In this document: piece by piece, positions 6,001 to 18,559 of the stretch | Layout of the letters: every line of letters begins with the position of its first letter | Position numbering within the stretch: position 1 is the stretch's first letter | NCBI GenBank assembly: GCA_018812705.1 | Contig: JAHJCZ010000056.1 | Span: forward strand, 1 to 44,522 | Length of the DNA stretch: 44,522 bases | Origin: Candidatus Omnitrophota bacterium | GTDB lineage: Bacteria > Omnitrophota > Gorgyraeia > Zapsychrales > Zapsychraceae | Direction of reading: 5' to 3' | Notes under the pieces: model-generated | Seen by the model: only the letters and a program-made list of their open reading frames with translations | What the model was told of the DNA's origin: nothing | The model's database searches: none | Position numbers and translations under genes: made by a program

Positions 6001-9000
6001 GAGATCTAAAGCATCCCGAGTTGATGGCTGGTCTTGGTTTTGATCTTGTGACAATAAGCGAAAGAGAATTTTATGTTAAGACAAGACAAAGAGACCCGAA
6101 TGAGCTGTTAGGTCATGTTAGCATTGATAGCTTTAGTGAAGGGAGCATGCTAGATAATTTAAATCAATTACCGGTCAATAGAGAATCAGGAGAAGAAGAT
6201 AGAAAAGGAAGCTTGAAGGTTAGAGGGCGTTTTAGATTGCCGCAAAAATTCAAAGGAAAATTGCCTGAGAGCAAGCAGGAAGAGATAAGGCGCAGAATAG
6301 AGAACATCATCGGATTCTTCGGTGGCATTGATAAGATAATATCCTTAAAGAAAGAAGAGAGGGAAAAACTTAGCTTTGAATGGGCAAGATACTTTGGTGT
6401 TGGCTTGATAGATGTATCAGGAAATAAATATTCAAGACAAGTGCTGATAGCATTAAGAACAATGGTTGAAGCAGGTAGTAAACCTTGTGTTGTCATTAGA
6501 TCTGAAAATTTAGTAAGGCTTCTTAAGAATATCTTTCCGTGGATCGATTTTAATTTCGCTGAAATAAGGAAGCATGAAATATTCATTGTTATGAATAAAG
6601 GATTGATGGATGAATACGGCTTGGATTATTTCATAACTACAGTTCATGAGACCATAGAAATATTAGTTAGTGCGACGGGGTCAAGAGACGAGTTATTCTT
6701 TAGAGATTTTGGCCATCAAAATTATTTTGTTCTTGAAGTGGAAATGGACCTAGCTAGTAGAATCGGCATAGCTGAAAGAATGCTTGAAATACGCGAAGCA
6801 AAAGACTTATCAAATATGGTACCAGTGTCGGCCTTCAAATATAGAGCATACTTAGAGGCGGTAAGGGGATTTGTAAATAAGACTGTTATTAGCAAAAAGA
6901 GTGATCAAGGCTTTGTTTTGCCAGAACTGCTGGCAGTAATAGCTGGCATGATGAGTTTAGGATTTCTTGCTTTAAAGAATATTCAATGGGCAGATATTCT
7001 CGGATGGATGACAAGAATTGGAGCGACTGGTTCGCTACCAACGAATGAATATAGTATAGTTATTGTTGTAATAGCAGTTCTAACCGCAGTGCTTTTAATT
7101 ATTCTTACAAAATATATAAATTCCAAAAAAGTCTTACAATTTAGTTCCAACCAAATAAGATCCGAAAATCCTGAGCTTAATATTGATAAGGACATTTTTA
7201 TGTCGAAAATGAGCGGTATGCCACCTGAAAGCATTTGGAATGCTCCAGGATGGTCGCCGTTTGAAGGAAAATATCTTTATAGGGCCATTACTTCTGAAGA
7301 GTGGGAAGCTATTCAGGAAAAGAGGGAGTATTTGATCGGAAAAGCAACTCTGTTTGAAAGGATAATGGGCGACAGGATAACACTTTATAAACAAAAGCAA
7401 TATAATGCTGGATTTTTAGTAAGAGTTAGAGCAGGAAGGCTGCACTTTCTTCAATCAGATTTTCATCCAACAAGGGCAAAAGCTTATTTAAAGCATACTT
7501 TAGACAAGCGATCATTTGAAATATCAAGCGATGGCGAAGAGTGGCTTGATATTGATAGTTATCTCAAGAGGCAAGCTGAGAGAGAACAGGTGGTAGCAAA
7601 TTTAGTAATTAGTGCAATAAAACCATTGTCAGAAAAGATCGTTAATTGGGATGAAGTTGCTTTAATTAAGGGGCAATTAATAAAAGCAGTTAAGGCAAGT
7701 AAAGGGAAAGCTGCTTTTTTCATTCATCCTGGTGGAGATTTTCTTGGAGAGATCAAGCGCGGGAAGTTAGAACCTATATATGAAAGAACAGATATTTATG
7801 TATCAAATTTAAGAAAATATTTTGAAGGTGCAACAGGTGTTGTTTTTGTTCTGGGAGGTTGTTATGAATTGATCAAAGATGTAAAGACGAGAGCAATTAT
7901 TGTGGAAATACCAACGAAGCAAAATAACGAGGGGGCTCAGCCTATCCCGGCTTTAGAGACTAAGAGCTGCGACTTTAAGTGGTCAGAGTGGAATCCTGTT
8001 GTTGCTTTTATGCAAGATATTGGAGTTAATAAAATTTCCAGTTTTGGTGGTGAGCTAGCAGTTGTTACTGACGATAATCATGTTATAAAATCTCTTCATG
8101 ATCATGGTTGTGTAGGCGGTGGGTTAGAATATTTATCCAAACGTTTTAGTATCAATGTTTTTCCTCAATTATGTTGTGGCAAAGGACAAAACAAGCATCT
8201 TTTGAAATCTAAAAGTATTGATACTGATAATTACTGGATCGTTAATATAGATGATGGTTCAAATAAAGATAAGCCGGTAATAAGATTAGAGGCAAAAAAG
8301 ACAAAGGAAAAATCTGGCGACACAATAAACGCGCAGGTTGTTGATGCGGGCTACGCCATGGGCATTATTTTTGCGGCGGCAATGATCATTGCTTCATTGC
8401 TTTTTGTGACGCTAAAACCCATTATCGTCTTTGTTGTAACAAAAGAAATTTTAGTTATATTTGCAGGCGGGTTGATAATATCTGTAATTATATTTGCCGG
8501 TTTTAACAAGTTGTTTGATCCCCTTCAGTCAATCTTTTCAACAGGTTGTTATTTTAGAGATATTATAGAAATTTGGAGATCAATATTTAAGGTATATCAA
8601 AAAATTTGGGAGATCATATCTTGGCCTGCCTATATGATCTGGAAATACTACACTTTTAGGATACATGAAAGTGCTCATTATATTGCTGCAAGAGCACTCA
8701 AGCAGCCTGTCAATGGCGTTGATTATAGTGAAGAAAGCAAAGGTGTTGCGCGGACATATGTCAAGTTGACGGGCCTAGAGAACTGGAAAGTAATATTTAT
8801 TACTTTAGCAGGACCGGTCACAAATCTTATTTCGGGAACAGTTTTTCTGTGTTTAATTAATTTTGAAAGACTGGGAGCGCTGGATTGGTATATGTTCCCT
8901 GCCTATTTCGGCATATGCATGGCAGCTCTCGAATATTCCACTTTCGTTTTGAATTTAATGCCAACTTCTAATTTGCCATTAGGAAGAGGGACAAAAGATG

Positions 9001-12000
9001 GCGATCTGATAATAAGAAGCCTTCAATTGTTATGGAAAGGAAAGCGCACATTTTACTTCCATAATGATTCTAAAAAAAGAAATGAGCTTCAGGCAAAAAG
9101 AAATAATAGACGTGTTACTCCTGACATTCGGCTTCTTCTGTTAATAGTGCCAATATTTGGATGGATGTTAGGATCAATATATAGGAAGTTAGTTAAGAGC
9201 GATGAAAGAAAAATACGCATATCAAATAAAGAAAATTTATCAAGGGATGTATCAAGAGCAGTAGCCCAAAGAATAAGTGAACTTCAAAAAGATCCAGAGA
9301 GGATAGTACGCATAGTTTTAGCAACAGGAAACACTATGGTGGGATTTCTAGATTCATTATCACGAGAAGAGGGAATTGATTGGACTAGAGTTTATGCTTA
9401 CCATTTGGATGAATATAAAGGGCTTGATACTGATAATGAGTATTCATTTGCATATTATCTTAATCATCATTTGTTTAGCAAAGTTAAAGGGATACCAAGA
9501 GAGAACATCAGATATGTAGACGGAAAGAATCCTGATCTAAGAGGCTATTTAAGAGAGCTAGATGATAATGGTGGGGCTGATATTGTTATGCTTGGTATTG
9601 GAAAAAATGGACACCTAGGGTTTAATGAGCCGGGCACTAGCTTTTGGTCGACAATGAGAGAGATAGAGTTGACTGAAAGTACTATCAAGGCAAACAAACC
9701 TGATTATCCAAATATTGAAGAAATACCTTTTGCATATACTATGGGCTTGAGAAATATTTTTAGAGGTAAGCACTTGTTCTTTGTGGCTTCTGGAGAAGGA
9801 AAGGCTCAAATAGTTAAGAAGGCTTTAGAAGGACGTGTTACAAACAAGGTTCCGGGATCATTAATACAAATGCATCCAAGAGTAGATATCTTTTTAGACT
9901 ACGAAGCTGCTTCACAGTTAAAAAATAAATCGCTTAAACAGATCGATAAAGTTGAGCAAAAACCGCTTGCGATGGGGCCAAAGTGGAATTATGCGTATTA
10001 CAAAAATATAGGAAGAGAACAATGGTTTGTTACAAAGCATGTTTCTTATGCAGAGGAAAGAGAAAGAGGAATATTTAAGAGAGGCCCTCCATTTGCATTC
10101 GTTAATATGCATACGGAAGTTCTAGATGTAATCACTGGTCAAAGAAGACCTCCTACCGAAGCCGAGCAGGTGAAACTTCTAAAGTTGGCACTGGATACTG
10201 ATGAGGCATACTACAGAACAAAAAGAATATTATGGTTCCTTCCTATCTTAAGAGATTGGTTTGCTTACCGCTCAGCAGCAAAAGTGCATGCTGCTTATAA
10301 TATGGAAGTCTATAGATCTCATATTGGAATTTATGCCATTCGAGAAAACGACATTCAGGCGGACGGCGGAATTATCGAAGATGATGATTCATCGACAACT
10401 GAGAGAGCAAGCTCTGCGCAAGTATCTTTCAATTCTGTTAAGTGGGCAAAGATCCCGGAAGTAAGACTGTCAGATGAAGTCATGGAAAGCGGCAGGACAG
10501 GATTGTTCATGACCGATAACCATATTGCCGTCGGCGCATTAAAGAATGGGGATATAGATGATATCAGAAGTCAAATAGACGAGAAGCTTGCTGGATTAGA
10601 ACGCGAATTTAAGCTTTTATTAAGGGGCAAATCATGGAGCGCAAAATTTAAAGTAGTTTATTATAAGGGCCTTGTATGCATAGTGCCTACTACCTGGAAA
10701 ATAACAGAGGATGAATTCCTGGCAGCGTTGTCAGAAGTGATGACTCAAGACCGTTATAATTCCTGCTACAAGGAAGGCAAGCCGCTTATTTTCTTTCCGG
10801 TAAAACATATAATTGACCATGACGAGAATAATGTTCTTCAGAACTTTATGATCGCAAGTAATCTCCGCGAGAAAATAATATTTGTTAACGTTTCTTTTAC
10901 GATCATTAATGAGAGTTTAGCAGATGATAAAAGAATGAAGCATGAGAATGCAGGGCCACTGTTCTTAAGAACATTATTAGAGTCGGTGTTTTTATCATCC
11001 AGGAAGAATATTAGGTACAGTTTTAGAAAAGAGTTTAGACAGATATTTAAAGCAATGAAGGAAATGAATCCTGACCTTTGGGAAAACTTAACGAGGCTTA
11101 AAGCGATATTATTTGAACAGGATATTATTAGCAGAGAAACCCTCAACGCGGTTAGAGGAGAAGATGAAATTGAAAGTGAGAATGTGCCACAAGTACGTGG
11201 AATCCGATATTCAGGAACTACATGCAGGCTAAAGTCACTAAAAAGAGTGTGGGCGGTAAGAAGATCAATAGGCTGTGAGCTTAATGACAGAAGTGAAGTA
11301 TTAGAAATAGGAGCCGGGGCGGGAACTTTGACCAGGTCTTTAGCAGAAGTATCAGAGCAAAGAGGATTATCCAGGGCACGATTTGTTGCTACAGATATAA
11401 ATGAGGATGCAGTTAATGATGCAAGAAGGAATTTGGCAGGATATCAGAATGTTGAAGTTCGTGCAGCGGGAGACCTGGATGAGCCAATTTCACGCGAGGA
11501 ACGCTTTACGCATATTATTTGGAATCCGCCATGGTTCATTGATAACAAGAATACAGCCTGCTTGGCAAAGCCTAATTGGTATGATCCGGGATTTAAAGAT
11601 ATCCAAAGATTCCTGACCATAATGCCCGGGTATCTTGCTGATGGTGGAAGTATTTTTGTAATATATCCTCAAGAAAATTCTGAAATACTCAGAGCATTAG
11701 CTGAACAATGCAAGCTAACTGTTGAAGAACTGGATCTATACGGATCTAGAGAACATGTTGAAATAATATTTAGATTAAAGCCTGAACAAAGTAAATTGTT
11801 GTCTGCAGGTGAAGAAAAGCCGCTTGAATTCCCTGAAGCAGAACGTGGAACCATAAAAAATATTCTTGAGAAAGCAGAGCTGTATGAGGTTGGCCGGGGA
11901 TGGAATCGAAAGGTCTGGAGCAGTAAAGACCTGGACTTTGTCGTGAAAATACCAAGGCAGAACATTTTCTTTGTGGTTTTGGCAAAGGTATTTAGTTTGA

Positions 12001-15000
12001 TGTTCAGGTTTAAAGAAGAGTATGCGCCTGAATTTAAAAACAGATTAGGCGGATTAGCTGCTGATTATTTTGAAGTACACAATGTTATTTTAAACCTCGG
12101 GGGAAAAGCAGTCTTTGTAAAAAGGGCTGTTGTCCAGCGCAAGACAGTTGTTGTTAAGAATAGGATCAATGAGCTGCTTAAACAAGGGAATAAAGAAGAG
12201 TCTCTCGATATTTTAATTAAGTGTATGGAAATACAGCGAAGCTTGTGGCGAAGGGGATTTAATTTCATTGAGTTTGTCCACCCACTAAGTAATTTCGGCA
12301 TTAACAAAAATGGAGAAGTTGTATTAATTGATGTTGGATGTCTTTATGAAAGAAGGCCGGCAATCATTGTGCGGCTAGTTTTTAATGAATGGCTTATGCA
12401 TTTACTATGGCATGAAGTTTTAATACCTTTAGTTCTTTTATTTATAGCGGGGCCGTATTTAGCTGTCAGATATCAACAAGAGGCGTACAAAGGGATGTTG
12501 AGATGGGATGAAATGACCTCTTTGTGGGAAACAGAGAAAGTATCAGGACTGAATATTAAGAAGGTTTCACGCATGTTCAATATGCCTGATAGTGAAAAAG
12601 TTAAAGCGCTTGAAAAGTTATGTGACGCAACATTAGAGGAAGCGGTTAATGCGCCGGGAAGAAGCGGGGAAACCAGGCTTTATTATATTCAGGACATAGA
12701 TGGCGGAGGTAAGTTTCAAAGGGCAAGCCTGCAGGCTGTGGACGTAATGTTTAGAAAAATGCGCTTTACCAAAGGCAAAAGATTTCTTGATGTGGGTTCA
12801 GGAGACGGAAGGGTTGTTTTCTTAGCTGCCATGCATGGTTTGGATGCGACAGGCGTTGAAAGAGATAAGAGGCAGAAAGCTTTAATAGAGAAGGATGAGA
12901 GTGAAGGGATCGATAATAATTTGTTCGGAAAGGGCACAACACACTGGCTTTGGGAAGATGTAATGGATATCGATCTATCACAATATGATGTGATATTTCT
13001 GCATGATGGAGGCTTAAACAAGAATAAAGAAAAGCTTGAAGAGAAGATCATAAGAGAAGGAAAAGGGTCAGTTCTGTTTGTTGTCATGGGTGAACGTTGG
13101 CCTTATTTGAATCGGTTAAAGCCGGTAAGGAGAGTTCTTAATTTATGGAACAGGATGTATTTGAGAGGGTTCGTTGTATTTGCGAAAGACAAAACAACAC
13201 TAAAGGCTAAAAGACAAAGCGTCCTTCCTCTTAAGAGCAGAGACATTGCCCAAGAAACAACTGTTGCTGAAAAGAGAAAAAGTGAACCTTGCGGAGTGAC
13301 GAATTATAAAGCTGAACCTTGGGTATTAGTTGTTCTTGCTGCTGGTATGGGGAGCCGGATGAATTCTACAGAACGTATTCCCAAGCCTGCCCGAAAAGTA
13401 GGCGGTAAGCCGTTAATTAGATATTTTCTTGATGCAGCAAAAACAATCAATATCCCGACAATAGCTGTTCTTGGTTTTGGGGCAGCTTCGGTTAAAGAAG
13501 TTTTACCCGAGGATACAGAATATGTAGTATCAGATAATCGCCAACGAAACAGTAAAGGTTTTATGCCTATAATAAGAGACTTTATGGCATCATACTCACT
13601 TTTAAAAGATTTTCATGGGAATATGATGATCGTGCCGGCTGATATCGTCATACTTAATGAGGAAATTTTAAAATATCTTCAGAAAGCGCATAGCCCTCCG
13701 CAAGAGAAATGTGCATGGTGTACAGTGATAACGGCGGGAGATATAGACATCTTTGTTATAAATTGGAAAACATTTAAATTATTAAATATATTCCTTCATT
13801 TGGCTAATATTGTTACAGCAGGTACCCAATTATATAAAAAAATATCAAGTGATCAATCTCAGGTGATGTCTCAAGATACGAGAAGCCATGACAATGTAAA
13901 ACGAAATGCATTTATAGGGAAAAAGAAGGTTAGGGTCAAGAAAGATAAGAAGAAAACGCTATGGTATATTTTGTACAAAAAATTATTGGGTTGGCTGTCA
14001 TCGAGAAATGTTGTCCGTTTTGTTAAAGATACAAATGAGCTGTTGTTACTGAACGTAAATACGCAAAGAGATATTAAATATGCTGAAGAGCGCTTGGCGC
14101 AAGAGCATAAGAAAGCATCGAAACATCTTAAAGCAAATAAACCGCCAGCAATGCAGACCAGGTTCAGGAAAAAGTTTGAGCATTATAAAGAAATGGGCAA
14201 AGAAGATTGGTTTGTTACAAGATATGTTCCTTTAAGAGAAGAATGGGCAAGAGGGGTATTCAAGCGCGGACCGCCTCAAGAATTTGTTGATGAGCATACT
14301 GAAGTTTATGACGCCGAAATATGCAAATGGAGAACACCTACTGCAAAAGAAACAGGAGAGCTTCTTATATTAGCTAAACGATGTGATCAAGCATATTCAT
14401 ACACGAAGAGCAGTTTCTGGTTTTTACCGATAATCCGCAATTTTATTGCCTACCGGTCCGCTGTTACAGTTCATGCCGAACATAATAAAAAAGTTTTTGA
14501 TTCTCAAGAAGGCATTTATGGCATTGCTGGCACAGCTCCTGAGAATAGAAAATATAATGTGCTTATATTATGCCGAGGGAATCAGGAGCGGTCTCCCATG
14601 GCTCATAAGCTTGTTGCAATGAACATCCCAGAGGATCTAAAAGGACGATTAATCATCGATTCTGCAGGTATAAATGGGTCCGTTGATGATCCTGGATTAG
14701 AAAGACAGTTAAAAAGGCATCCGATACTTCGAAGACATTATTCTGTGGAAGTGAAAATGCAGCAATTGAAAGAAGCAGATATTATCTTTGTTATGACAGG
14801 TTCGCAAATAAAGTCTTTGCTGAAAAAGGATGCGGGTCTTCAAGGAAAGATATTCCTTCTTTTAGATGGCCGCGATCTTCATGTTGATCCTGATGAAGAT
14901 AATCCTGACTATGGGCCAAGTTATGTGAGCTTAGAGAAGACTATAAGGAGTAGATTGGATGTTGTTTTTAATCGAATTCGTGCAAGGATAGAGGTTATCA

Positions 15001-16925
15001 ATGTTCCTTTAGCCCCTATAGCTTCAAGGGTGTTGCCGTCTGATGCTAAATTGGTAGACGCTCTTCGTATTCATGAATTTATTGCAGAGTATCCAGAATA
15101 TTTGCAGGCCTATTATGATGAAGATAATCCAGTTTATCCTACAGGGTGCAGGAGTTTTAGCTTTGCGATCGCTGAAAAGATGAGAGAGGTTGGTATCGAT
15201 GCATATATTGTTAGCAGCCAAAAAGATTACTGGTATTTATCGGTGCTGGCCGTTTTGCAGGATGGTTCTATAGAAGAATGTATTATAGATTTTACAGCGG
15301 ATCAATTTGTCAAAGAAAAAATCTCTCCAGTGTTTTTATCAAGAAGCGAGGTTAAAAAACAGTTTGCTTCACTATATGATCGTGTTTGGCATGATACTTC
15401 AAAAGTAGTGCCGATTGAAGAAGCTCTAATGGATGATTGGTTTCTAGAATATATTGCAATTATCGAATTAATTATTAAGTGGCAAAGAATAAAGGCACAG
15501 TCCCCTAAAAAGGACAGCTATTTGGCTTCGCTCTACCACGATAATGAGGGTTTGCAGAAAGATTTAGATACGGGAAAAATACGTTTTGTTGATGTCCGAT
15601 GGGAGATCAATGTTCCGGGGGATCTTTGTTTGGAAGGAAAATTCACATTTATATCGAATAGGTTGAAGAAATTTCTCGGGTGGAATAAGGCCTCCAAAGT
15701 TACTTTGGCTATACGGGATTTTTCAGGGGATAAAGTTATAATTGAAGATGCATTGATCATGCGTTGGCTGAGTGAAAAAAAGCTTGTTTTGGATTTTAAT
15801 AGACGTGTTGAACATCATCAAAATAATAAATTTGTGATAATTGAAGAACTAGTTCAGGGCACTAGTAGCGGTTCCGATAATAGCAATCCTGCAATGAAAA
15901 ATAAATTCAAAGAATTGCATCAATATTATAAAAGTATTGGAAAAGAAGAGTGGTTCGTCACTAAATATGTTCCGAGTAAAGAAGAGTGGTCCAGGGGTAT
16001 CTTTAGGCGCGAACCGCCTCAAGAATTTGTTGATGAGCATATTGAAATTTATGATGCAGAATCAGGGAACTGGAGAGAGCCTACCGAAAAAGAAAAAGAA
16101 GAACTGCTGATCTTAGCCTGCCGATGTGATCAATCCTATTATCAAACAAAGAAAAAATTATGGTGGCTGCTGATATTAAGAAACTGGTTCGCCTACCGTG
16201 AGGCGGTAAAGGTTCACACCGATCATAATAAAAATGTCTTTGATTATAAAAAGGGAGTTTATGGTATCGCAGGTAAATTACCAGAAAAAAGAATATATAA
16301 TGTGCTTATTTTATGCCGGGGCAATCAGGAGCGCTCTCCCATGGCGCATAAACTTGTTGAAATGAATATGCCTGCGGACCTAAAAGGAAGATTAATTATT
16401 GAATCTGCAGGAATAAACGGGCCAGTTGATGATTTTGGAATAGAAATGCATTTAAGAAGGCATCCGATACTTCGAAGACATTATTCTGTAAAAGTTACAG
16501 AACAGCAATTGAGAGAAGCAGATATTATTTTTGTCATGACTCTATCCCAAGTTAAGTCTTTACTGAACATGGATCCAAGCCTCAAAGAAAAGATATTCCT
16601 TCTTTTAGAAGGCAGAGATCTGGAGGTTAGTTATAAGGACGATTATCCTGAACATGGGCCAACTTATAAGGGTTTAGAGAAGACTATAAGAAGTGGCTTA
16701 GATGGTATTTTTTATCGTATTCGCACCCAAATAAAAGTGATCAACAGAACTGGAAATAGAAATCCTGCAATGAAAACAGAGTTCAAATCTTTGCATAAGT
16801 ATTATAAAAATGCTGGAAAAGAAGAGTGGTTCGTCACTAAATATGTGCCACGCAAAGAGGAGTGGTATTTAAGCGCGGCCCGCCTCAAGAGTTTGTTGAT
16901 GCGCATAATGAAGTGTATGATGTGA
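1..16925 (+). CDS. Giant multidomain protein, N-terminal part missing, C-terminus frameshifted
   Basis: The frame is open from the left edge. The codons before the TTG at 63 contain no stop, so 63 is not the real start and the gene begins outside the window. About 5640 codons are visible. Residue numbers here count from the TTG at 63. Many enzyme-like domains are joined by membrane segments; each is listed separately. Recognisable pieces include HExxH repeats, an HprK-like P-loop, GHKL ATPases, an M50 protease, a NagB-like domain, two Rossmann methyltransferases, a kinase-like fold, a nucleotidyltransferase and two CX5R phosphatases. Hydrophobic segments near residues 1100-1200, 2283-2350, 2765-2816, 3020-3040 and 4113-4137 suggest a membrane-bound product. 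The last 20 or so residues, after position 16866, are out of frame and meaningless; the true continuation is the frame 16862-18559. Very large ORFs are known from Omnitrophota. The overall function is unknown. Confidence 0.9.
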   Translation, partial: KFFDCRQSISDLTKKTITSILLYDFVEKIIKTYSDAGKTIKGYADMLSVLEEYLAMSGKVRAGPSIVAYYDPILDEIIYNLTPEEIQAALKEKYSEEEIQGLIKFITDHEELHKSSHPEGSYEIYANEEEAVLQMQLRKMTGNFSTDNDSLTDNKYCSYEEAQEFASILSELYFILDSARVSRRKALSILEHLKNGEPLKFAQEFPSDIRSWAIGWVKRIKLEFGQILPFLEVWNGPSYSELIFTPEQNAIIILGKSKSGKSSLAATAQHQGFEFGGEHDTKYIMLSIPGYLFAGTREQILKIRARAYCLDETDPNSRLVPIVNQVSAIGVVRNIVLLKHRPKLNQKIVVRIQEAADLSGIARLEVKMRLANPVKVIHLSHGRTAAAEYPELVRRMAISIAEDRDAKLIYSQNIRQYIKNRSSVLIKSQVEQLNKYADILEILEEYLITSGKLRGGPETVAFFSSTANEVIFNLSEQEMNEVLKEKFSPEEIRALIIFIIDHEDLHKKFYQEKTRFKSNEAEEEAVFDLQLNVKVLSSDVGTEETLALEAAENTSVEVIEDVETKNSAMDDSDYTENSWLEEELMRIEAIEEKWLEQIIVRIVDESLLWRIRYSEVRHIVAFFDVCEGNLKAISFLRDALLREEIFEEKMGKLWAALLKAKQAVILRTDMRKLINQKLLRNIEKKMQEADQKLVRLFNEEGIGQGLTKEKIDAMQSGWEWIYNIFVRVGKERYLIEKIVSKGEEFTRQLYRTWLKFRYYKEYADHVSGSKFIYAHYGKAFDTARKWFVPSAEDRRKINKALRELSEDCNYAFDIAYEEFMNKWSISVEMPWIKYAYMSPNNKVVPMPLKIRLAIPLTRIVAWLRGWQASSEVHEKYNHKVIEGRKIAVVAMSGSLTFANKDKNANKEISRVLLGIKEGSLYLIADDDKALHIRELVSKIMSRIELDVERNLHIKGLLGVLTKLKRKNDRLEIWKDKDIGIVLRELLKNSLRFVQERNEHNTGDVVVEVIARVENGEFILAIKDYGLGFRRINKRKIFLEGMSTKENGKLKIAQLGGLGLYYSRLFVEMFLGCKIHALDNQKDLKEEKLGATFEIVISMGEDNKEGILLDGESRTKRTVETVIATSVFIMLVTPGIVNASKDTNITTDILGVVFALPAIANIVIVYLVLKFAARYIGRMILNNRIMFPFLTTKNRAIFVMIVGGIVLLINMFVHMIEGVVTLVSVNVFNKVVYRPFRWILRFSKALKNKIEYRLANIKNTPKDPHRAKDPHNPPSEEQIRDDIDRLSRKNVLRKGKTFKRAVDEALVRVGKLDADISDALIKIRDTIEIRAGDLNHIWATYRDGILYIDRSLLKKPSLSKELLLTLIHEAGVIADPQRTDEQNEEFARQVLGIIQDDLSTREGILKGPGYFNLSKWIESNRKIVDEYLFRFDPKGRIKVDYSLPEGEEIYVRCALSGKFEEALDELIKNAIDGAILWLRDKRVGVTVAHISIRVRMIDIDDVPYFEFKVVYPGLVDDAKMPGDAGVSFNNAKIFLASHLRSKLLCTESLVENEPSVEFSFRVKRAGIGIETGIRTNSLINMINIARNSMRSEIDRIKRHAFDIRVAVDNYLSIAEYCKHRLYPVIYELLKNMVDAEIIYRESNKVCEKRDLFVEVNRWGADKVIVLFKSMGEIDEERIKAAAKHLGIYVPCEEQVIKGTFKFITTHLISDEPMSLKRLSDGEIDKLSLKTLLFETKGFTTKNEAMLSEHGMKRSDIPGGEGLGLQQSSMTIEMMGEEYELNYTTAKENGEPVVIFTLVIPLEKEQKVANRTDEQNEPFAHKEVANRQNVISIPTTLYYPGGGFDMQAILQEPNVKKAIIVDEMDDWSIILWRILQEFKYRHPEVVINEIFTPEMSVSTKSLIGSYIEHDKVKQEQSRGYLTLNIQTSQGKKQIHYYYGHSMFESGIWFKAGIDRDPLLVKVRQFPLFERGEWGKDYLDEMLGFIDNLPTYSMIENDYFIEGDLKHPELMAGLGFDLVTISEREFYVKTRQRDPNELLGHVSIDSFSEGSMLDNLNQLPVNRESGEEDRKGSLKVRGRFRLPQKFKGKLPESKQEEIRRRIENIIGFFGGIDKIISLKKEEREKLSFEWARYFGVGLIDVSGNKYSRQVLIALRTMVEAGSKPCVVIRSENLVRLLKNIFPWIDFNFAEIRKHEIFIVMNKGLMDEYGLDYFITTVHETIEILVSATGSRDELFFRDFGHQNYFVLEVEMDLASRIGIAERMLEIREAKDLSNMVPVSAFKYRAYLEAVRGFVNKTVISKKSDQGFVLPELLAVIAGMMSLGFLALKNIQWADILGWMTRIGATGSLPTNEYSIVIVVIAVLTAVLLIILTKYINSKKVLQFSSNQIRSENPELNIDKDIFMSKMSGMPPESIWNAPGWSPFEGKYLYRAITSEEWEAIQEKREYLIGKATLFERIMGDRITLYKQKQYNAGFLVRVRAGRLHFLQSDFHPTRAKAYLKHTLDKRSFEISSDGEEWLDIDSYLKRQAEREQVVANLVISAIKPLSEKIVNWDEVALIKGQLIKAVKASKGKAAFFIHPGGDFLGEIKRGKLEPIYERTDIYVSNLRKYFEGATGVVFVLGGCYELIKDVKTRAIIVEIPTKQNNEGAQPIPALETKSCDFKWSEWNPVVAFMQDIGVNKISSFGGELAVVTDDNHVIKSLHDHGCVGGGLEYLSKRFSINVFPQLCCGKGQNKHLLKSKSIDTDNYWIVNIDDGSNKDKPVIRLEAKKTKEKSGDTINAQVVDAGYAMGIIFAAAMIIASLLFVTLKPIIVFVVTKEILVIFAGGLIISVIIFAGFNKLFDPLQSIFSTGCYFRDIIEIWRSIFKVYQKIWEIISWPAYMIWKYYTFRIHESAHYIAARALKQPVNGVDYSEESKGVARTYVKLTGLENWKVIFITLAGPVTNLISGTVFLCLINFERLGALDWYMFPAYFGICMAALEYSTFVLNLMPTSNLPLGRGTKDGDLIIRSLQLLWKGKRTFYFHNDSKKRNELQAKRNNRRVTPDIRLLLLIVPIFGWMLGSIYRKLVKSDERKIRISNKENLSRDVSRAVAQRISELQKDPERIVRIVLATGNTMVGFLDSLSREEGIDWTRVYAYHLDEYKGLDTDNEYSFAYYLNHHLFSKVKGIPRENIRYVDGKNPDLRGYLRELDDNGGADIVMLGIGKNGHLGFNEPGTSFWSTMREIELTESTIKANKPDYPNIEEIPFAYTMGLRNIFRGKHLFFVASGEGKAQIVKKALEGRVTNKVPGSLIQMHPRVDIFLDYEAASQLKNKSLKQIDKVEQKPLAMGPKWNYAYYKNIGREQWFVTKHVSYAEERERGIFKRGPPFAFVNMHTEVLDVITGQRRPPTEAEQVKLLKLALDTDEAYYRTKRILWFLPILRDWFAYRSAAKVHAAYNMEVYRSHIGIYAIRENDIQADGGIIEDDDSSTTERASSAQVSFNSVKWAKIPEVRLSDEVMESGRTGLFMTDNHIAVGALKNGDIDDIRSQIDEKLAGLEREFKLLLRGKSWSAKFKVVYYKGLVCIVPTTWKITEDEFLAALSEVMTQDRYNSCYKEGKPLIFFPVKHIIDHDENNVLQNFMIASNLREKIIFVNVSFTIINESLADDKRMKHENAGPLFLRTLLESVFLSSRKNIRYSFRKEFRQIFKAMKEMNPDLWENLTRLKAILFEQDIISRETLNAVRGEDEIESENVPQVRGIRYSGTTCRLKSLKRVWAVRRSIGCELNDRSEVLEIGAGAGTLTRSLAEVSEQRGLSRARFVATDINEDAVNDARRNLAGYQNVEVRAAGDLDEPISREERFTHIIWNPPWFIDNKNTACLAKPNWYDPGFKDIQRFLTIMPGYLADGGSIFVIYPQENSEILRALAEQCKLTVEELDLYGSREHVEIIFRLKPEQSKLLSAGEEKPLEFPEAERGTIKNILEKAELYEVGRGWNRKVWSSKDLDFVVKIPRQNIFFVVLAKVFSLMFRFKEEYAPEFKNRLGGLAADYFEVHNVILNLGGKAVFVKRAVVQRKTVVVKNRINELLKQGNKEESLDILIKCMEIQRSLWRRGFNFIEFVHPLSNFGINKNGEVVLIDVGCLYERRPAIIVRLVFNEWLMHLLWHEVLIPLVLLFIAGPYLAVRYQQEAYKGMLRWDEMTSLWETEKVSGLNIKKVSRMFNMPDSEKVKALEKLCDATLEEAVNAPGRSGETRLYYIQDIDGGGKFQRASLQAVDVMFRKMRFTKGKRFLDVGSGDGRVVFLAAMHGLDATGVERDKRQKALIEKDESEGIDNNLFGKGTTHWLWEDVMDIDLSQYDVIFLHDGGLNKNKEKLEEKIIREGKGSVLFVVMGERWPYLNRLKPVRRVLNLWNRMYLRGFVVFAKDKTTLKAKRQSVLPLKSRDIAQETTVAEKRKSEPCGVTNYKAEPWVLVVLAAGMGSRMNSTERIPKPARKVGGKPLIRYFLDAAKTINIPTIAVLGFGAASVKEVLPEDTEYVVSDNRQRNSKGFMPIIRDFMASYSLLKDFHGNMMIVPADIVILNEEILKYLQKAHSPPQEKCAWCTVITAGDIDIFVINWKTFKLLNIFLHLANIVTAGTQLYKKISSDQSQVMSQDTRSHDNVKRNAFIGKKKVRVKKDKKKTLWYILYKKLLGWLSSRNVVRFVKDTNELLLLNVNTQRDIKYAEERLAQEHKKASKHLKANKPPAMQTRFRKKFEHYKEMGKEDWFVTRYVPLREEWARGVFKRGPPQEFVDEHTEVYDAEICKWRTPTAKETGELLILAKRCDQAYSYTKSSFWFLPIIRNFIAYRSAVTVHAEHNKKVFDSQEGIYGIAGTAPENRKYNVLILCRGNQERSPMAHKLVAMNIPEDLKGRLIIDSAGINGSVDDPGLERQLKRHPILRRHYSVEVKMQQLKEADIIFVMTGSQIKSLLKKDAGLQGKIFLLLDGRDLHVDPDEDNPDYGPSYVSLEKTIRSRLDVVFNRIRARIEVINVPLAPIASRVLPSDAKLVDALRIHEFIAEYPEYLQAYYDEDNPVYPTGCRSFSFAIAEKMREVGIDAYIVSSQKDYWYLSVLAVLQDGSIEECIIDFTADQFVKEKISPVFLSRSEVKKQFASLYDRVWHDTSKVVPIEEALMDDWFLEYIAIIELIIKWQRIKAQSPKKDSYLASLYHDNEGLQKDLDTGKIRFVDVRWEINVPGDLCLEGKFTFISNRLKKFLGWNKASKVTLAIRDFSGDKVIIEDALIMRWLSEKKLVLDFNRRVEHHQNNKFVIIEELVQGTSSGSDNSNPAMKNKFKELHQYYKSIGKEEWFVTKYVPSKEEWSRGIFRREPPQEFVDEHIEIYDAESGNWREPTEKEKEELLILACRCDQSYYQTKKKLWWLLILRNWFAYREAVKVHTDHNKNVFDYKKGVYGIAGKLPEKRIYNVLILCRGNQERSPMAHKLVEMNMPADLKGRLIIESAGINGPVDDFGIEMHLRRHPILRRHYSVKVTEQQLREADIIFVMTLSQVKSLLNMDPSLKEKIFLLLEGRDLEVSYKDDYPEHGPTYKGLEKTIRSGLDGIFYRIRTQIKVINRTGNRNPAMKTEFKSLHKYYKNAGKEEWFVTKYVPRKEEWYLSAARLKSLLMRIMKCMM
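114..416 (+). other. Domain: HExxH repeat domain, copy 1
   Basis: Residues about 18-118 of the giant protein. A helical segment (LEEYL.. SGK.R.GP) leads to HEELH at residues 89-93, followed by an acidic EEEA stretch near 108-111. The layout matches a small zincin-like metal site: two histidines and a glutamate in HExxH plus a downstream acid. The same domain recurs at residues 409-511. Peptidase activity is inferred only from the motif. Confidence 0.5.
735..1050 (+). other. Domain: P-loop, HPr kinase C-terminal-like
   Basis: Residues about 225-330. The Walker A is G235-KSKS-G240-K241-S242, preceded by a hydrophobic strand (IIIL) and followed by a Gly/His-rich turn. This arrangement resembles the HprK/P serine kinase-phosphorylase C-terminal domain, which has the P-loop in a single beta-alpha unit. 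The HprK signature region further downstream is not clearly recognisable, so nucleotide binding is likely but kinase activity toward HPr is not supported. Confidence 0.45.
1287..1596 (+). other. Domain: HExxH repeat domain, copy 2
   Basis: This is a diverged second copy of the domain at 114-416. LEILEEYL..SGKLRGGP aligns with LSVLEEYL..SGKVRAGP, and HEDLH (residues 482-486) aligns with HEELH, again followed by an acidic EEEA segment. The two motifs are 393 residues apart, with the P-loop domain between them. Conservation of both histidines and the glutamate in both copies, while surrounding residues differ, suggests the metal site is under selection. Confidence 0.5.
2928..3290 (+). other. Domain: GHKL (HATPase_c) copy 1
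   Basis: The N box RELLKNSLRF has Asn968, the G1 box is DYGLGF (Asp1003), and the G2 box GGLGLYYSR starts at residue 1035. All ATP-binding boxes of a histidine-kinase-type ATPase are present. No HisKA dimerisation helix with a phospho-accepting His is visible immediately before it; the preceding ~500 residues are mostly charged helices. Membrane segments follow it. Confidence 0.7.
3360..3680 (+). other. Three predicted transmembrane segments in the giant protein
   Basis: Three hydrophobic stretches lie at about residues 1100-1118, 1135-1157 and 1175-1200 (for example FVMIVGGIVLLINMFV). They separate the first GHKL domain from the following HEAGV and GHKL domains, so the protein is probably anchored in a membrane here. 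Confidence 0.6.
3780..4200 (+). other. Domain: HEAGV-containing domain
   Basis: Residues about 1240-1380. A helical region precedes LIHEAGVIAD (His1347, Glu1348), followed by RTDEQNEEFARQVL. His-Glu plus a downstream acidic segment could form a metal site, but the second His of HExxH is absent (HEAGV), so it is at best a degenerate zincin. The RTDEQNE segment recurs after the third GHKL domain (around 5430-5455). Confidence 0.3.
4260..4690 (+). other. Domain: GHKL-like copy 2, degenerate
   Basis: The N box DELIKNAIDGA (Asn1448) is clear. The expected G1 box DxGxG is not: the corresponding stretch is YPGLVDDAKMPGDAG. The G2 box is also weak. ATP binding is doubtful. It sits between the HEAGV domain and GHKL copy 3. 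Confidence 0.5.
4845..5400 (+). other. Domain: GHKL-like copy 3
   Basis: The N box YELLKNMVDA has Asn1610 and the G2 box GGEGLGLQQS is at 1737-1746, but the G1 box is replaced by KSMGEID. The C-terminal strand order (EPVVIFTLVIPL) is typical of HATPase_c ends. It is related to copies 1 and 2, making three consecutive GHKL-type folds in one polypeptide. Confidence 0.55.
5460..6890 (+). other. Unassigned region of the giant protein with an HETIE motif
   Basis: Residues about 1800-2276. I recognise no family. It contains a soluble alpha/beta-looking part (YYPGGGFDMQ, KKAIIVDEMDDW). A helical domain follows, with FITTVHETIEILVSA (His2195, Glu2196) and FGHQNYFVLEVEMDLA downstream, which could be another degenerate metal site. 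It ends just before the prepilin-like hydrophobic segment. Confidence 0.3.
6909..6977 (+). other. Prepilin-like hydrophobic segment inside the giant protein
   Basis: After KKSDQ comes GFVLPELLAVIAGMMSLG, starting at Gly2283. It reproduces the type IV prepilin cleavage pattern: basic stretch, Gly, Phe, hydrophobic, Glu at +5, long hydrophobic helix. Pro at +4 is unusual. In real prepilins this sits near the N-terminus; here it is internal, so it may mark an ancient fusion or be coincidental. Confidence 0.4.
7140..8340 (+). other. Unassigned soluble region of the giant protein
   Basis: Residues about 2360-2760, between two membrane segments. It contains YLYRAITSEEWEAI (about 2405) and FLQSDFHPTRAKAYL. 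A later part has FIHPGGDFLGE, VVFVLGGCYELI and a Cys/Gly-rich DHGCVGGGLEYL. The second half has the strand-Gly pattern of an alpha/beta hydrolase or isochorismatase-like fold, but I cannot name a family. Confidence 0.3.
8355..9060 (+). other. Domain: M50 (site-2) membrane metalloprotease
   Basis: Hydrophobic segments at residues 2765-2816 precede HESAH (2868-2872), a canonical HExxH set in a membrane-entry context. Then come LAGPVTNLISG and NLMPTSNLPLGRGTKDGD (2964-2981), which match the family's third-ligand region NxxP...DG. All three zinc ligands are therefore present. Family members cut transmembrane helices; the substrate is unknown and could include this protein itself. Confidence 0.7.
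9231..9920 (+). other. Domain: glucosamine-6-phosphate deaminase (NagB)-like, one catalytic residue changed
   Basis: Residues about 3057-3286 cover a whole NagB-type fold: LATGNTMVGF phosphate loop, YHLDEYKGL (Asp3116, the enolising base), GIGKNGHLGFNEPG, and NKVPGSLIQMH. His3184 and Glu3189 of the ring-opening relay are kept. The aspartate of the family's DGH is Asn3182. That change would be expected to weaken or alter catalysis, so this could be a sugar-phosphate sensor rather than a working deaminase. Confidence 0.75.
9975..10340 (+). repeat. Module copy 1 of four (about 125 residues)
   Basis: It begins WNYAYYKNIG, has REQWFVTKHV, IFKRGPP, FLPILRDWFAYRSA and KVHAAYN, and ends GIYAI. It is the most diverged copy. 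The other copies start at 14151, 15894 and 16770. I do not recognise the family. It follows the NagB-like domain. Confidence 0.85.
10345..11200 (+). other. Unassigned region of the giant protein
   Basis: Residues about 3428-3713. An acidic/Ser linker is followed by an alpha/beta part (VVYYKGLVCIVPTTW, KPLIFFPVKHIIDHDENN, KIIFVNVSF) and then charged helices. No family is recognised. Position suggests it is the 'payload' between module copy 1 and the first methyltransferase. Confidence 0.3.
11262..11775 (+). other. Domain: SAM methyltransferase 1 (NPPW type)
   Basis: Motif I VLEIGAGAGTLTRSL starts at residue 3746, motif II is VATDINEDAVNDA, and motif IV is NPPW at 3821-3824. The NPP(Y/F/W) motif is typical of methyltransferases acting on planar nitrogen (HemK/PrmC, RsmC, N6-adenine enzymes). 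Motifs are intact, so activity is plausible. The target is unknown. Confidence 0.75.
11850..12480 (+). other. Domain: protein kinase / aminoglycoside phosphotransferase-like fold
   Basis: YEVGRGWNRKVW resembles a glycine-poor loop. VVKIPRQ provides a candidate ATP-anchoring Lys3962, and NFGINKNGEVVLIDVG gives an Asn and a metal-binding Asp4090 (DVG in place of DFG). The usual HxD catalytic loop is replaced by HPLSNFG, so the catalytic aspartate is not evident. A hydrophobic segment follows (VLLFIAGPYLAV). RIO, APH or UbiB-like relatives are possible. Confidence 0.55.
12690..13190 (+). other. Domain: SAM methyltransferase 2
   Basis: Motif I is RFLDVGSGDGRVVFLAA (Asp4243), followed by TGVERDKRQ and YDVIFLHDGG. 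The pattern resembles class I methyltransferases with an acidic loop after strand 4, and SAM binding looks intact. The domain is unrelated in detail to methyltransferase 1, which has an NPPW. Confidence 0.65.
13318..14100 (+). other. Domain: nucleotidyltransferase (GlmU/MobA-like), partly degraded
   Basis: LAAGMGSRM (4425-4433) followed by KPARKVGGKPLI is the NTP-binding signature of sugar nucleotidyltransferases. MMIVPADIVIL supplies the metal-site Asp. The central part is poorly conserved and contains a Lys/Arg-rich insert. The end LNVNTQRDIKYAEERL matches the family's usual 'NTPEDL..AE' C-terminus. No left-handed beta-helix follows. Confidence 0.65.
14151..14531 (+). repeat. Module copy 2 of four
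   Basis: It starts MQTRFRKKFEHYKEMGKEDW and ends GIYGIAG. Shared landmarks are WFVTRYVP, EEWARGVFKRGPPQEFVDE, CDQAY, FWFLPIIRNFIAYR, VHAEHNKKVF. This intact copy shows the ten bases that copy 4 has lost. It leads directly into phosphatase domain 1. Confidence 0.9.
14550..14996 (+). other. Domain: low-molecular-weight protein phosphatase 1
   Basis: VLILCRGNQERSPMA carries the CX5R(S) phosphate loop (Cys4837, Arg4843). IIDSAGI and ADIIFVMT follow in the family order. The DP-loop equivalent is DNPDYGPSY, which keeps an Asp that could be the general acid. Length and order match LMW-PTP/arsenate reductase family members. Confidence 0.8.
15010..15890 (+). other. Transglutaminase-like remnant and unassigned linker between phosphatase domains
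   Basis: TGCRSFSFAIAEKMREVGI (Cys5029) and CIIDFTADQF (Asp5076) resemble the Cys and Asp positions of transglutaminase-like cysteine hydrolases. The His between them is missing: DYWYLSVLAV stands where GHHW-type residues would be expected. The rest (about 5100-5275) is an unrecognised soluble region ending in a Ser/Gly linker before module copy 3. Confidence 0.35.
15894..16274 (+). repeat. Module copy 3 of four
   Basis: It starts MKNKFKELHQYYKSIGKEEW and ends GVYGIAG, and is closely similar to copies 2 and 4. A 33-nt stretch (15938-15970) is identical to 16814-16846 in copy 4, indicating recent duplication or gene conversion. It leads directly into phosphatase domain 2. Confidence 0.9.
16290..16745 (+). 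other. Domain: low-molecular-weight protein phosphatase 2
   Basis: This is a duplicate of phosphatase domain 1 with the same ILCRGNQERSPMA loop (Cys5418). A 33-nt tract (16457-16489) is identical to 14714-14746. The acid-loop equivalent reads DYPEHGPTY, with Glu where copy 1 has Asp, so kinetics or function may differ. The domain is otherwise complete. Confidence 0.8.
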
Positions 16926-17134
16926 AATTAGGCGAATGGAGAAAGATCTCTGAAGAAGAAAAAGAAAAATTACTAAGAATTGCACGACAATGTGATCAAG
17001 CTTATCTGCGTATAAAAGATAAGTTTTGGTTCCTGCCTATTATTAGAAATTTCATTGCTTATCGAGCGGCGGTTAAAGTTCATGCTGAGCATAATAGAAA
17101 AGTCTTTATGTCAGGGCTCGGTATTTATGCAATT
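16770..17134 (+). repeat. Module copy 4 of four, frameshifted by a 10-nt deletion
   Basis: It starts MKTEFKSLHKYYKNAGKEEW in the first frame and continues VFKRGPPQEFVDA from 16862 in another frame, ending GIYAI. Aligned with copy 2, the bases coding for the W-ARG-V junction are ten short. This copy precedes the LOG-like domains. Confidence 0.85.
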
Positions 17135-18559
17135 TCACTAGCAAATGGACACAACGGACACAATGGAAAAAATGGTCATGTAAAGAGTAAAAGTGAATTA
17201 AAGAAAAGGGATGTTGCCTTCAGAAGACTCCTTCGGGAAATTACAGAGGAACGCTTGTTGGTGTGGAAAAAAGTTAGACAGCTTGAACCAGCGATCTCTA
17301 TTTTAGGAAGTGCGCGTATTGCAGAGAATCATTTTGTTTATCAACAGGGCCAAAGAATTGGCGAAGCTTGTGCCCAGAGAGAAGTTCCTGTAAGAACCGG
17401 CGGAGGTCCATCAATGATGGAAGCACCTTTTGTTGGGTCGTTAGCACAGAGACTGGTAAGGGGATTGACTAGGAGAAGAAAAATACAAAATCAGGCTATA
17501 AACATAATTTTTACGGATAAAGAAGATCCTAATCCTTATGGAGAAATAAGTTTAAATTTCAATCGCTTTATTACACGTAAATGGGGGTTAACTGAAAATA
17601 TACTTGGAGGAATATTTGTTTCAGGGGGGTATGGTACGCTTGATGAACTTTTCGAATTTTGGCGCAGGGGCATACCTATTGTCCTGTTTGGATCTGATTT
17701 TTATGACCCTATAGTTACAGCGTTCCTTAGGTTTGTAGATGCTAATGACAATACTAGAAGCATTTCTTATCGAGACAAACTATTTATTACTGATGATCCA
17801 CAAGAAGCAGTAGAATTTATTCTTCGTAAAGCAAAAGAATACCCAATTGAAAGAACTTCTAAAAAAGATTATATGGATATTATTAAGAGCTTTAAAAGCA
17901 GTTTGTATTATTTAAAGGATAGGCCTCGTAGTGTTGTTTTTCAGGGAAGGCCTAAGAGCGAAGCAATACTTGATTTTGCTGCAAGATTAATGCAGATGAT
18001 AGCAGAAGATTCTAATACGAGCAAGCAGGGTATTGGCATTCGAGTAGGAAGCAAGGGCGCGCTTTATGCACGTCTAAGCGAGGAAGCAAAGTTAAAAGGA
18101 TTGCATGAAGCATTTGAAGCAGTTTTGTTTTCACCTGATAGCGATATAAGATTGGAAGCAGACTCTTTGATATTTGGTCGGAATATTATTAGGTTAAGGG
18201 ATGAATCTAATCAACAATTAATAGCTGCATACAATTCTCATGCTTTTGTATTTTTTCCGGGAGCTGTTGGCACTATGAACAGGTTGTTTGATCTTTTATG
18301 TGTAATGCAGACAAATAAGATAAGTAAAAGACCAATAATAGTTGTTGATGATAATGGTAGCTGGCGAGAGTTTTTTATGCTTTTGCGGGAGAAAATGTAT
18401 ACTGAATGGAAACAGGCCGGCTTGGATTTTGCAATGATATCTAAAGAAGATATTGATTTTCTGCAGTTCGTAGATGTCAGGGATCAAGATGCTCTTGAAG
18501 AAACGATGCGCGCGATCAGTAGACAAGTCGTATTAGATAATGGACACTTTATCCCTTAA
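16862..18559 (+). CDS. C-terminal continuation of the giant protein: module copy 4 remainder plus two LOG-like domains
   Basis: The frame opens with a GTG at 16862 and encodes 565 residues. It begins exactly where module copy 4 of the giant gene loses frame (VFKRGPPQEF follows EEW), so it is better read as the downstream half of a frameshifted gene than as an independent protein. The purine-rich AGAGGAG that could act as a ribosome site directly abuts the GTG, which is too close for normal initiation. After the module there is a short Gly/Asn/His linker. Next comes a LOG/TIGR00730-type Rossmann domain with GGGPSMMEA and SGGYGTLDE (residues 254-262; the family has PGGxGTxxE). A second, more diverged copy has PGAVGTMNR (466-474). 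LOG proteins cleave nucleoside monophosphates to release the base; here the first copy may be active and the second probably is not. No terminator is evident after the stop. Confidence 0.75.
   Translation: MVFKRGPPQEFVDAHNEVYDVKLGEWRKISEEEKEKLLRIARQCDQAYLRIKDKFWFLPIIRNFIAYRAAVKVHAEHNRKVFMSGLGIYAISLANGHNGHNGKNGHVKSKSELKKRDVAFRRLLREITEERLLVWKKVRQLEPAISILGSARIAENHFVYQQGQRIGEACAQREVPVRTGGGPSMMEAPFVGSLAQRLVRGLTRRRKIQNQAINIIFTDKEDPNPYGEISLNFNRFITRKWGLTENILGGIFVSGGYGTLDELFEFWRRGIPIVLFGSDFYDPIVTAFLRFVDANDNTRSISYRDKLFITDDPQEAVEFILRKAKEYPIERTSKKDYMDIIKSFKSSLYYLKDRPRSVVFQGRPKSEAILDFAARLMQMIAEDSNTSKQGIGIRVGSKGALYARLSEEAKLKGLHEAFEAVLFSPDSDIRLEADSLIFGRNIIRLRDESNQQLIAAYNSHAFVFFPGAVGTMNRLFDLLCVMQTNKISKRPIIVVDDNGSWREFFMLLREKMYTEWKQAGLDFAMISKEDIDFLQFVDVRDQDALEETMRAISRQVVLDNGHFIP

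Follow-up and report, generated by a model that had tools for sequence, protein, structure and literature searches.

What is the role of a unit of about 125 residues that recurs several times within one giant bacterial protein, in the intervals between its other domains? The question is raised by a 44,522-nt stretch of DNA (hereafter the window), which is the entire contig JAHJCZ010000056.1 of a 2.69-Mb metagenome-assembled genome of Candidatus Omnitrophota bacterium (GCA_018812705.1) and carries a giant multidomain open reading frame (ORF). Giant ORFs of Omnitrophota encode some of the longest predicted proteins known. The recurring unit, here termed the module, was found to be hydrophilic, to span about 120-140 residues and to lie between other domains, and it is undescribed in the libraries searched. 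Some uncultured Omnitrophota make giant multi-enzyme proteins in which such a unit, with its protease-like residues, recurs and may serve as a built-in device for cutting or joining. With catalytic-looking residues and end motifs, the module provides a testable handle on whether these ORFs give one chain or many cut proteins, and it also marks sites of apparent domain-block exchange between close relatives.

Four copies of the module had been described from the DNA letters and their translations (the sequence-only reading), and these were borne out by translation, alignment and tblastn analyses. Three modules are full-length in the window and a fourth is mostly present, with the complete copies sharing 50-61% identity to copy 2 or copy 1. 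Use of copy 2 as a tblastn query against its own 2.69 Mb genome retrieved copy 3 (E 5e-54), copy 4 (E 3e-36) and copy 1 (E 7e-34) and detected no further site. That reading had, however, overlooked a divergent fifth copy (copy 0, at 2142-2672), which the profile A3, itself built with copy 0 among its rows, matched at E 5.5e-26; no more copies than these five were found in the genome. The motifs reported as common to the four copies are present but not identical throughout, as copy 1 has PPFAF and TDEAY and copy 3 has RREPPQEF and CDQSY at the corresponding sites. Copies 1 to 3 lie within the single ORF at 3..16925. Copy 4 begins in the frame of this ORF (16770-16871) and resumes in another (16868-17134), since copy 4 lacks 8 bases that are found in copy 3 and in the orthologue of a congener. 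The gap lies between two GG pairs and divides both the copy and the ORF across two frames. The loss is either a real mutation or an assembly error. In the congener, Omnitrophica WOR_2 bacterium RIFOXYA2_FULL_38_17 (G001, MHHG01000076.1), four copies are found in an ORF of 5,440 codons, which is unbroken at the matching site and runs on through the LOG pair.

The distribution of the module was examined by searches of increasing breadth (genome counts include the own genome). A single-copy query had matches in 3/55 genomes (own and relatives), a 13-row profile in 7/81 genomes of the order, a 23-row profile in 6/285 genomes of a phylum sample, all of one class, and a 29-row profile in 16/384 genomes of a class sample, where 28 matches were detected. 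The frames that hold these 28 matches span 572 to 57,756 codons. All but one are of at least 1,676 codons; the sole exception (572 codons) is copy 4, which lies past the frameshift. Frame lengths of more than about 16,000 codons should be read as upper bounds, as the frame of G070 includes a long masked stretch and the longest others (G293, G045) may do so too. Because of these frame lengths and the restriction of matches to one class, the module is, among the genomes searched, a trait of giant ORFs from a single Omnitrophota class, in which a small minority of the genomes carry it. Tandem pairs of modules were found in G056, G174 and G070. The profile searches were confined to Omnitrophota samples; viral contigs, plasmids, phages and one genome-contig scan gave no match to single-copy queries, which reach close relatives only. 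A weak CPBP-like match in G221 (E 0.4) was not accepted as a module copy.

The sequence-only reading had called the module unrecognised, and no match to any Pfam or NCBIfam family or to a PDB sequence was found. DUF7474 of Pfam (best E 0.011, under cut-off, in 2/23 copies) was set aside as a chance match. A search of 29 copies against NCBIfam gave just isolated weak single matches, and the two PDB sequence matches (E 1.2 and 2.3) were both to unrelated proteins. A recurring module of this kind was not named in the titles or abstract openings of the literature searched, a scope that did not take in preprints.

Conservation was analyzed across 40 copies, drawn from the window and from 18 other genomes (44 match pieces minus 4 fragments or duplicates). 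The best-conserved positions were found to be polar and to form the motifs EE, FxxxH and HxxxN. The first His is present in 40/40 copies, the second His in 36/37 and the Asn four residues after it in 33/37, while the first Glu is present in 34/38 and the next Glu in 31/38. The position four residues before the first His is F or W in 33/39 copies (F in 27, W in 6), that four before the second His is Ala in 33/37, and an Arg four residues after the first Glu, to form EExxR, is found in 24. In 10 copies from outside the model training, the first His was detected in 10/10, the second His in 7/7, N or D in 7/7 and the first Glu in 7/9; these copies were retrieved with the same model and hence are not an unbiased sample. 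The module typically starts with xAM-x-P and ends with G-[IV]-x-A-[MI], and an [AG]M pair falls within a 14-aa window at the start of 21/40 copies and at the end of 16/40, compared to 5.2% of random windows. When the EE..R/FxxxH/HxxxN pattern was sought by regular expression outside the modules, 3 places were found compared to 2.75 in shuffled sequence; thus, giant ORFs do not carry this pattern throughout their length. The xAM motif was also considered as a general inter-domain signal of giant ORFs and rejected, overall AM counts being only mildly raised (for example, 14 in the window ORF vs 7.7 expected).

The modules were found to be under purifying selection. By comparison of the window to the congener, ratios of nonsynonymous to synonymous substitution (dN/dS) of 0.10 for copy 1, 0.20 for copy 3 and 0.09 for the C-terminal part of copy 4 were obtained, and the enzymes of the same pair gave 0.04 (deaminase), 0.14 (low-molecular-weight (LMW) phosphatase 2) and 0.07 (LOG pair), with synonymous sites near saturation in some of the comparisons. 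The module values of 0.09-0.20 are within the range of those of the enzymes; the modules are constrained protein and not junk. In an AlphaFold2 (AF2) model built from seven rows, the module is helical, with a hairpin that directly follows the helix of FxxxH and then a pair of long helices, of which the final one carries HxxxN, with the two conserved His residues on different predicted helices (predicted local distance difference test score, pLDDT, 67.8; predicted template modelling score, pTM, 0.63). An AF2 model of the module joined to LMW phosphatase had a pLDDT of 39.9 and was not used.

CPBP (CAAX) and PrsW proteases are multi-pass membrane proteins, and CPBP proteins have an HxxxN motif, which is also seen in the CPBP copies of this lineage; no beta-hairpin is known to follow their FxxxH. 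The motifs described for CAAX proteases are EExxxR and FxxxH (PMC9298176), and the related PrsW and APH-1 have EExxR and QExxR along with conserved histidines (PMC6588880). The module has residues of the same order and kind as CPBP (PF02517) and PrsW (PF13367), namely EE..R (in which the Arg is weak), an aromatic residue and a His in the FxxxH spacing, and a small residue four positions before an HxxxN that lies on a separate predicted helix. Models were used to score this likeness, of which that for lineage CPBP was built from 26/28 loci (those past a motif filter), with three giant-ORF CPBP copies added later. The CPBP model scored above 0 bits in 13/40 modules, compared to 4.4% of 1,600 shuffles, 10% of 40 reversed modules and 8.5% of 1,000 random giant-ORF segments, and a PrsW model (5/6 loci, one below cut-off left out) did so in 5/40 modules compared to 1.9% of shuffles. 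Control models of VanZ (23/25 loci, the two omitted being L179 and L164, the latter interrupted by a stop codon) and PAP2 scored above 0 bits in 1/40 and 2/40 modules, respectively, with mean ranks at chance (0.492 for VanZ). The best-scoring copies align in register to the CPBP model at EE or at HxxxN, with both in 2/8, over the stretches 'liaP..EE' and 'aHylfN'. Genuine PF02517-like membrane domains are found inside giant ORFs in 5/74 genomes of the order, four of them over the Pfam cut-off. In one of these genomes, G080, the CPBP domain shares its contig with part of a module (E 4e-4), and both lie in frames of 5,757 codons.

As the likeliest role, at a probability of about one in three, we propose that the module is a reduced CPBP/PrsW-like unit by which giant polyproteins are processed. 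The E/H/H/N set would be the active site of a glutamate protease of the CPBP/PrsW (Rce1-like) type, carried by a non-membrane scaffold of reduced size. Either by itself or with the real membrane proteases of some giant ORFs, the module would cut the chain at the xAM brackets or close to them and so release its neighbours, for example the LMW phosphatases and the LOG enzymes. Catalysis, cleavage and the position of the cleavage site are the steps that we infer. The broader proposal, that the giant proteins are true polyproteins matured by many copies of a water-soluble CPBP/PrsW descendant cutting at the flanking xAM motifs, is considerably less probable; if it is true, virus-like processing would occur in a bacterial cell and the active site of a membrane protease would have moved onto a soluble scaffold of 125 residues.

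A number of results weigh against a CPBP/PrsW-like processing unit. The multi-pass membrane core of CPBP and PrsW was not detected, as 26/28 copies are without a membrane-like segment (19-residue window, mean Kyte-Doolittle of at least 1.7), and the AF2 model, itself of moderate quality, has the beta-hairpin after FxxxH. The Arg of EExxxR is weak, being present in the 24 copies noted above and, by a looser count, in 2/10 of the more remote copies, with a spacing one residue short, and the xAM bracket is absent from many copies. By Pfam models, PF02517 matched 0/23 copies at E<=10 (a search in which few matches above about 0.1 pass the HMMER filters) and PrsW (PF13367) none of the 23, and when the whole of the own genome was searched with PF02517, no match fell on the window contig. 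Searches of the fetched ORFs with the lineage CPBP model did not retrieve a module. Profile comparisons by hhalign were not significant, with probabilities of 0.6-0.9% for CPBP and 2.7% for PrsW (the VanZ and PAP2 controls gave 0.0-0.1%). A convincing fold was likewise not found, in that neither the 29 Foldseek matches (none at E<=0.001) nor the 18 rows of a VIA search (Z 2.0-4.6, the best at 4.6 being an unrelated enzyme) included a CPBP or Lipocone chain, an absence that in itself proves nothing. The excess model scores are, in addition, not independent because the copies are related. Thus, the resemblance of the module to CPBP and PrsW is specific but weak, and membership of the CPBP family is not claimed because the membrane core and a Pfam match were tested for and not found.

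The main rival, nearly as likely as a processing unit, is that the module is a structural joint, a folded spacer without activity that is kept because its repeated copies permit recombination, and hence an exchange of domain blocks within the giant protein. Comparison of the window to the congener revealed a mosaic gene, in which homologous blocks of 62-87% protein identity (dN/dS 0.04-0.20) are separated by unrelated blocks. Of the 11 block ends, four are no more than 25 aa away from the edge of a module, compared to 1.05 expected (P 0.016); the 25-aa limit was chosen post hoc, and the edges counted include a scar. This scar, VNKAAKGIYAM at residues ~4250-4264 of the congener ORF, is a module end that stands before an unrelated methyltransferase-like block at the place of the NTP transferase block of the window. 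The clustering of block ends at module edges and the scar suggest that the modules mark, or help, the exchange of domain blocks, and the tandem modules are also consistent with a joint. By contrast, the remaining block ends have no module nearby, and the top conserved positions are the polar E/H/H/N set and not core hydrophobics, which is unusual in a mere spacer. A joint and a processing unit are not mutually exclusive.

It is unlikely that the module is instead a different small enzyme or a metal- or lipid-binding domain with an H/E/H/N site, such as a remote Lipocone-like enzyme of lipid head groups. The Lipocone domain consists of four helices and has conserved polar residues, and some Lipocones are soluble; those of the Skillet clade are reported from gigantic proteins of Omnitrophota that also contain methylases, peptidases and parts of histidine kinases (PMC12419801). 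The gigantic proteins of that report resemble the window ORF in their methyltransferases, histidine-kinase parts, polysaccharide enzymes and peptidases; its focus is the Lipocone and an H/E/D set (His of H2, Glu of H3, Asp of H4), compared to EE, FxxxH and HxxxN of the module. The module does have an invariant His, but its last helix carries His (36/37) and Asn where the ancestral H4 residue is Asp. The VanZ model showed no excess, and no Lipocone fold was matched.

A targeting or docking cassette for the enzyme that follows, as put forward by the sequence-only reading, is a still less probable role. As that reading had stated, copies 2, 3 and 4 of the window lead directly into LMW phosphatase 1, LMW phosphatase 2 and the LOG pair, as borne out by Pfam and NCBIfam scans (about 10 aa past copies 2 and 3 and about 50 aa past copy 4), and copy 1 is followed by about 315 aa without a recognised domain. 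The congener orthologues of copies 3 and 4 retain this order. By contrast, most copies in relatives have no recognisable enzyme after them, and some are followed by another module or a helix-turn-helix (HTH) domain. Of 20 downstream stretches scanned against Pfam (19 in relatives and 1 in the window, with one copy left out because its stretch spans two loci and another stretch shortened), 6 have a domain that starts within 100 aa, namely a MarR-type HTH (below cut-off), HTH_8, CheD, amylase, AAA/adenylate kinase and HATPase_c, and 8 have no Pfam family at all. The proposition that the module always precedes an enzyme domain, offered with that reading as a check, fails on these counts and on the tandem modules. 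A position in front of different catalytic domains is true of the window gene and largely of the congener but is not the rule, since window copies 2-4 precede enzymes and most downstream scans do not show one. What stands is a recurring unit of an undescribed family that is also present in other genomes; a cassette dedicated to enzymes is not supported. The same reading had named release as an option, and such a role is possible, as the E/FxxxH/HxxxN pattern and xAM brackets would fit a processing unit. Finally, that the module is a remnant in decay, a piece of a formerly working gene that was taken up along with its neighbours and has fallen out of use, is very improbable, for although copy 4 is frameshifted and some copies are truncated, the dN/dS values and the first His kept in 40/40 highly diverged copies oppose it.

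Giant ORFs of Omnitrophota, including a Velamenicoccus protein of 39,678 aa, have been viewed largely as adhesins or as factors in predation (PMC10066038). The window ORF, 16,923 nt in length and still open at its end, is of this very long multidomain type, and it shares with those proteins the host phylum, a giant multidomain build, few annotated domains and poor conservation; by contrast, a recurring inter-domain module is not described in the available part of that report. A second parallel is with polymorphic toxins, for which PrsW, with eight membrane helices, is a proposed releasing peptidase along with caspase, HINT and ZU5 (PMC3482391). There, as proposed here for the module, a peptidase unit within a long protein would free a neighbouring domain, which in the toxins is the C-terminal toxin domain of an exported protein. 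Unlike in those toxins, the domains downstream in the window are metabolic or signalling enzymes, the unit is repeated within one protein, and the ORF is known here without its N-terminus, which lies beyond the contig end. No toxin domain was named by Pfam or NCBIfam in the window ORF.

Table. Modules and other features of the window, with PF02517-like domains found in giant ORFs of the order.
Feature	Position	Strand	Remarks
Giant multidomain ORF	3..16925	+	at least 5,640 codons; open at 5' contig end; holds modules
Module copy 0 (divergent)	2142..2672	+	EEFTR, FIYAH, HEKYN; 87 aa upstream of HATPase_c
HATPase_c domain	2931..3290	+	Pfam 32.0 bits, cut-off 26.4
Glucosamine-6-phosphate deaminase/isomerase domain	9225..9872	+	directly upstream of copy 1
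Module copy 1	9972..10340	+	translation, alignment, tblastn; orthologue in congener
Methyltransferase domain	11286..11717	+	about 315 aa past copy 1
NTP transferase domain	13329..13721	+	upstream of copy 2
Module copy 2	14151..14525	+	translation, alignment, tblastn; PPAM just upstream
LMW phosphatase 1	14559..14903	+	P-loop CRGNQERS intact
Module copy 3	15894..16268	+	translation, alignment, tblastn; NPAM just upstream; orthologue in congener
LMW phosphatase 2	16299..16646	+	PRK10126 match; two LMWPc stretches in ORF
Module copy 4	16770..17134	+	frame broken by 8-base deletion near 16866
LOG-like pair (TIGR00730 / Lysine_decarbox)	17291..18472	+	frame differs from giant ORF
PF02517-like domains in giant ORFs (5,466 to 30,644 codons)	G080:C139 (L122), G023:C46 (L123), G040:C63 (L124), G038:C147 (L120), G047:C28 (L125)		

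The domains of the window ORF are in the order HATPase_c, glucosamine-6-phosphate deaminase, methyltransferase, NTP transferase and two LMW phosphatases. Three further stretches of this ORF were noted. By eye and at approximate coordinates, its start has two related units with HEELH and HEDLH (~150-400 and ~1270-1560) that flank a P-loop, GKSKSGKSS. At ~6906-6953 there is a type IV prepilin-like stretch (QGFVLPELLAVIAGMM), which adjoins the site of a 280-aa insertion in the congener. A site-2-protease-like series, HESAHY ... NLMP ... DGD, lies at ~8661-8880, with a Peptidase_M50 score of 21.1 bits (under the cut-off of 27.2). Further along the contig, the stretch from 19060 to 43306 is ordinary in content and encodes a response regulator and histidine kinase pair, an Na/Pi cotransporter, minus-strand genes for MutL and MutS, and then glycosyltransferases and a carbamoyltransferase.

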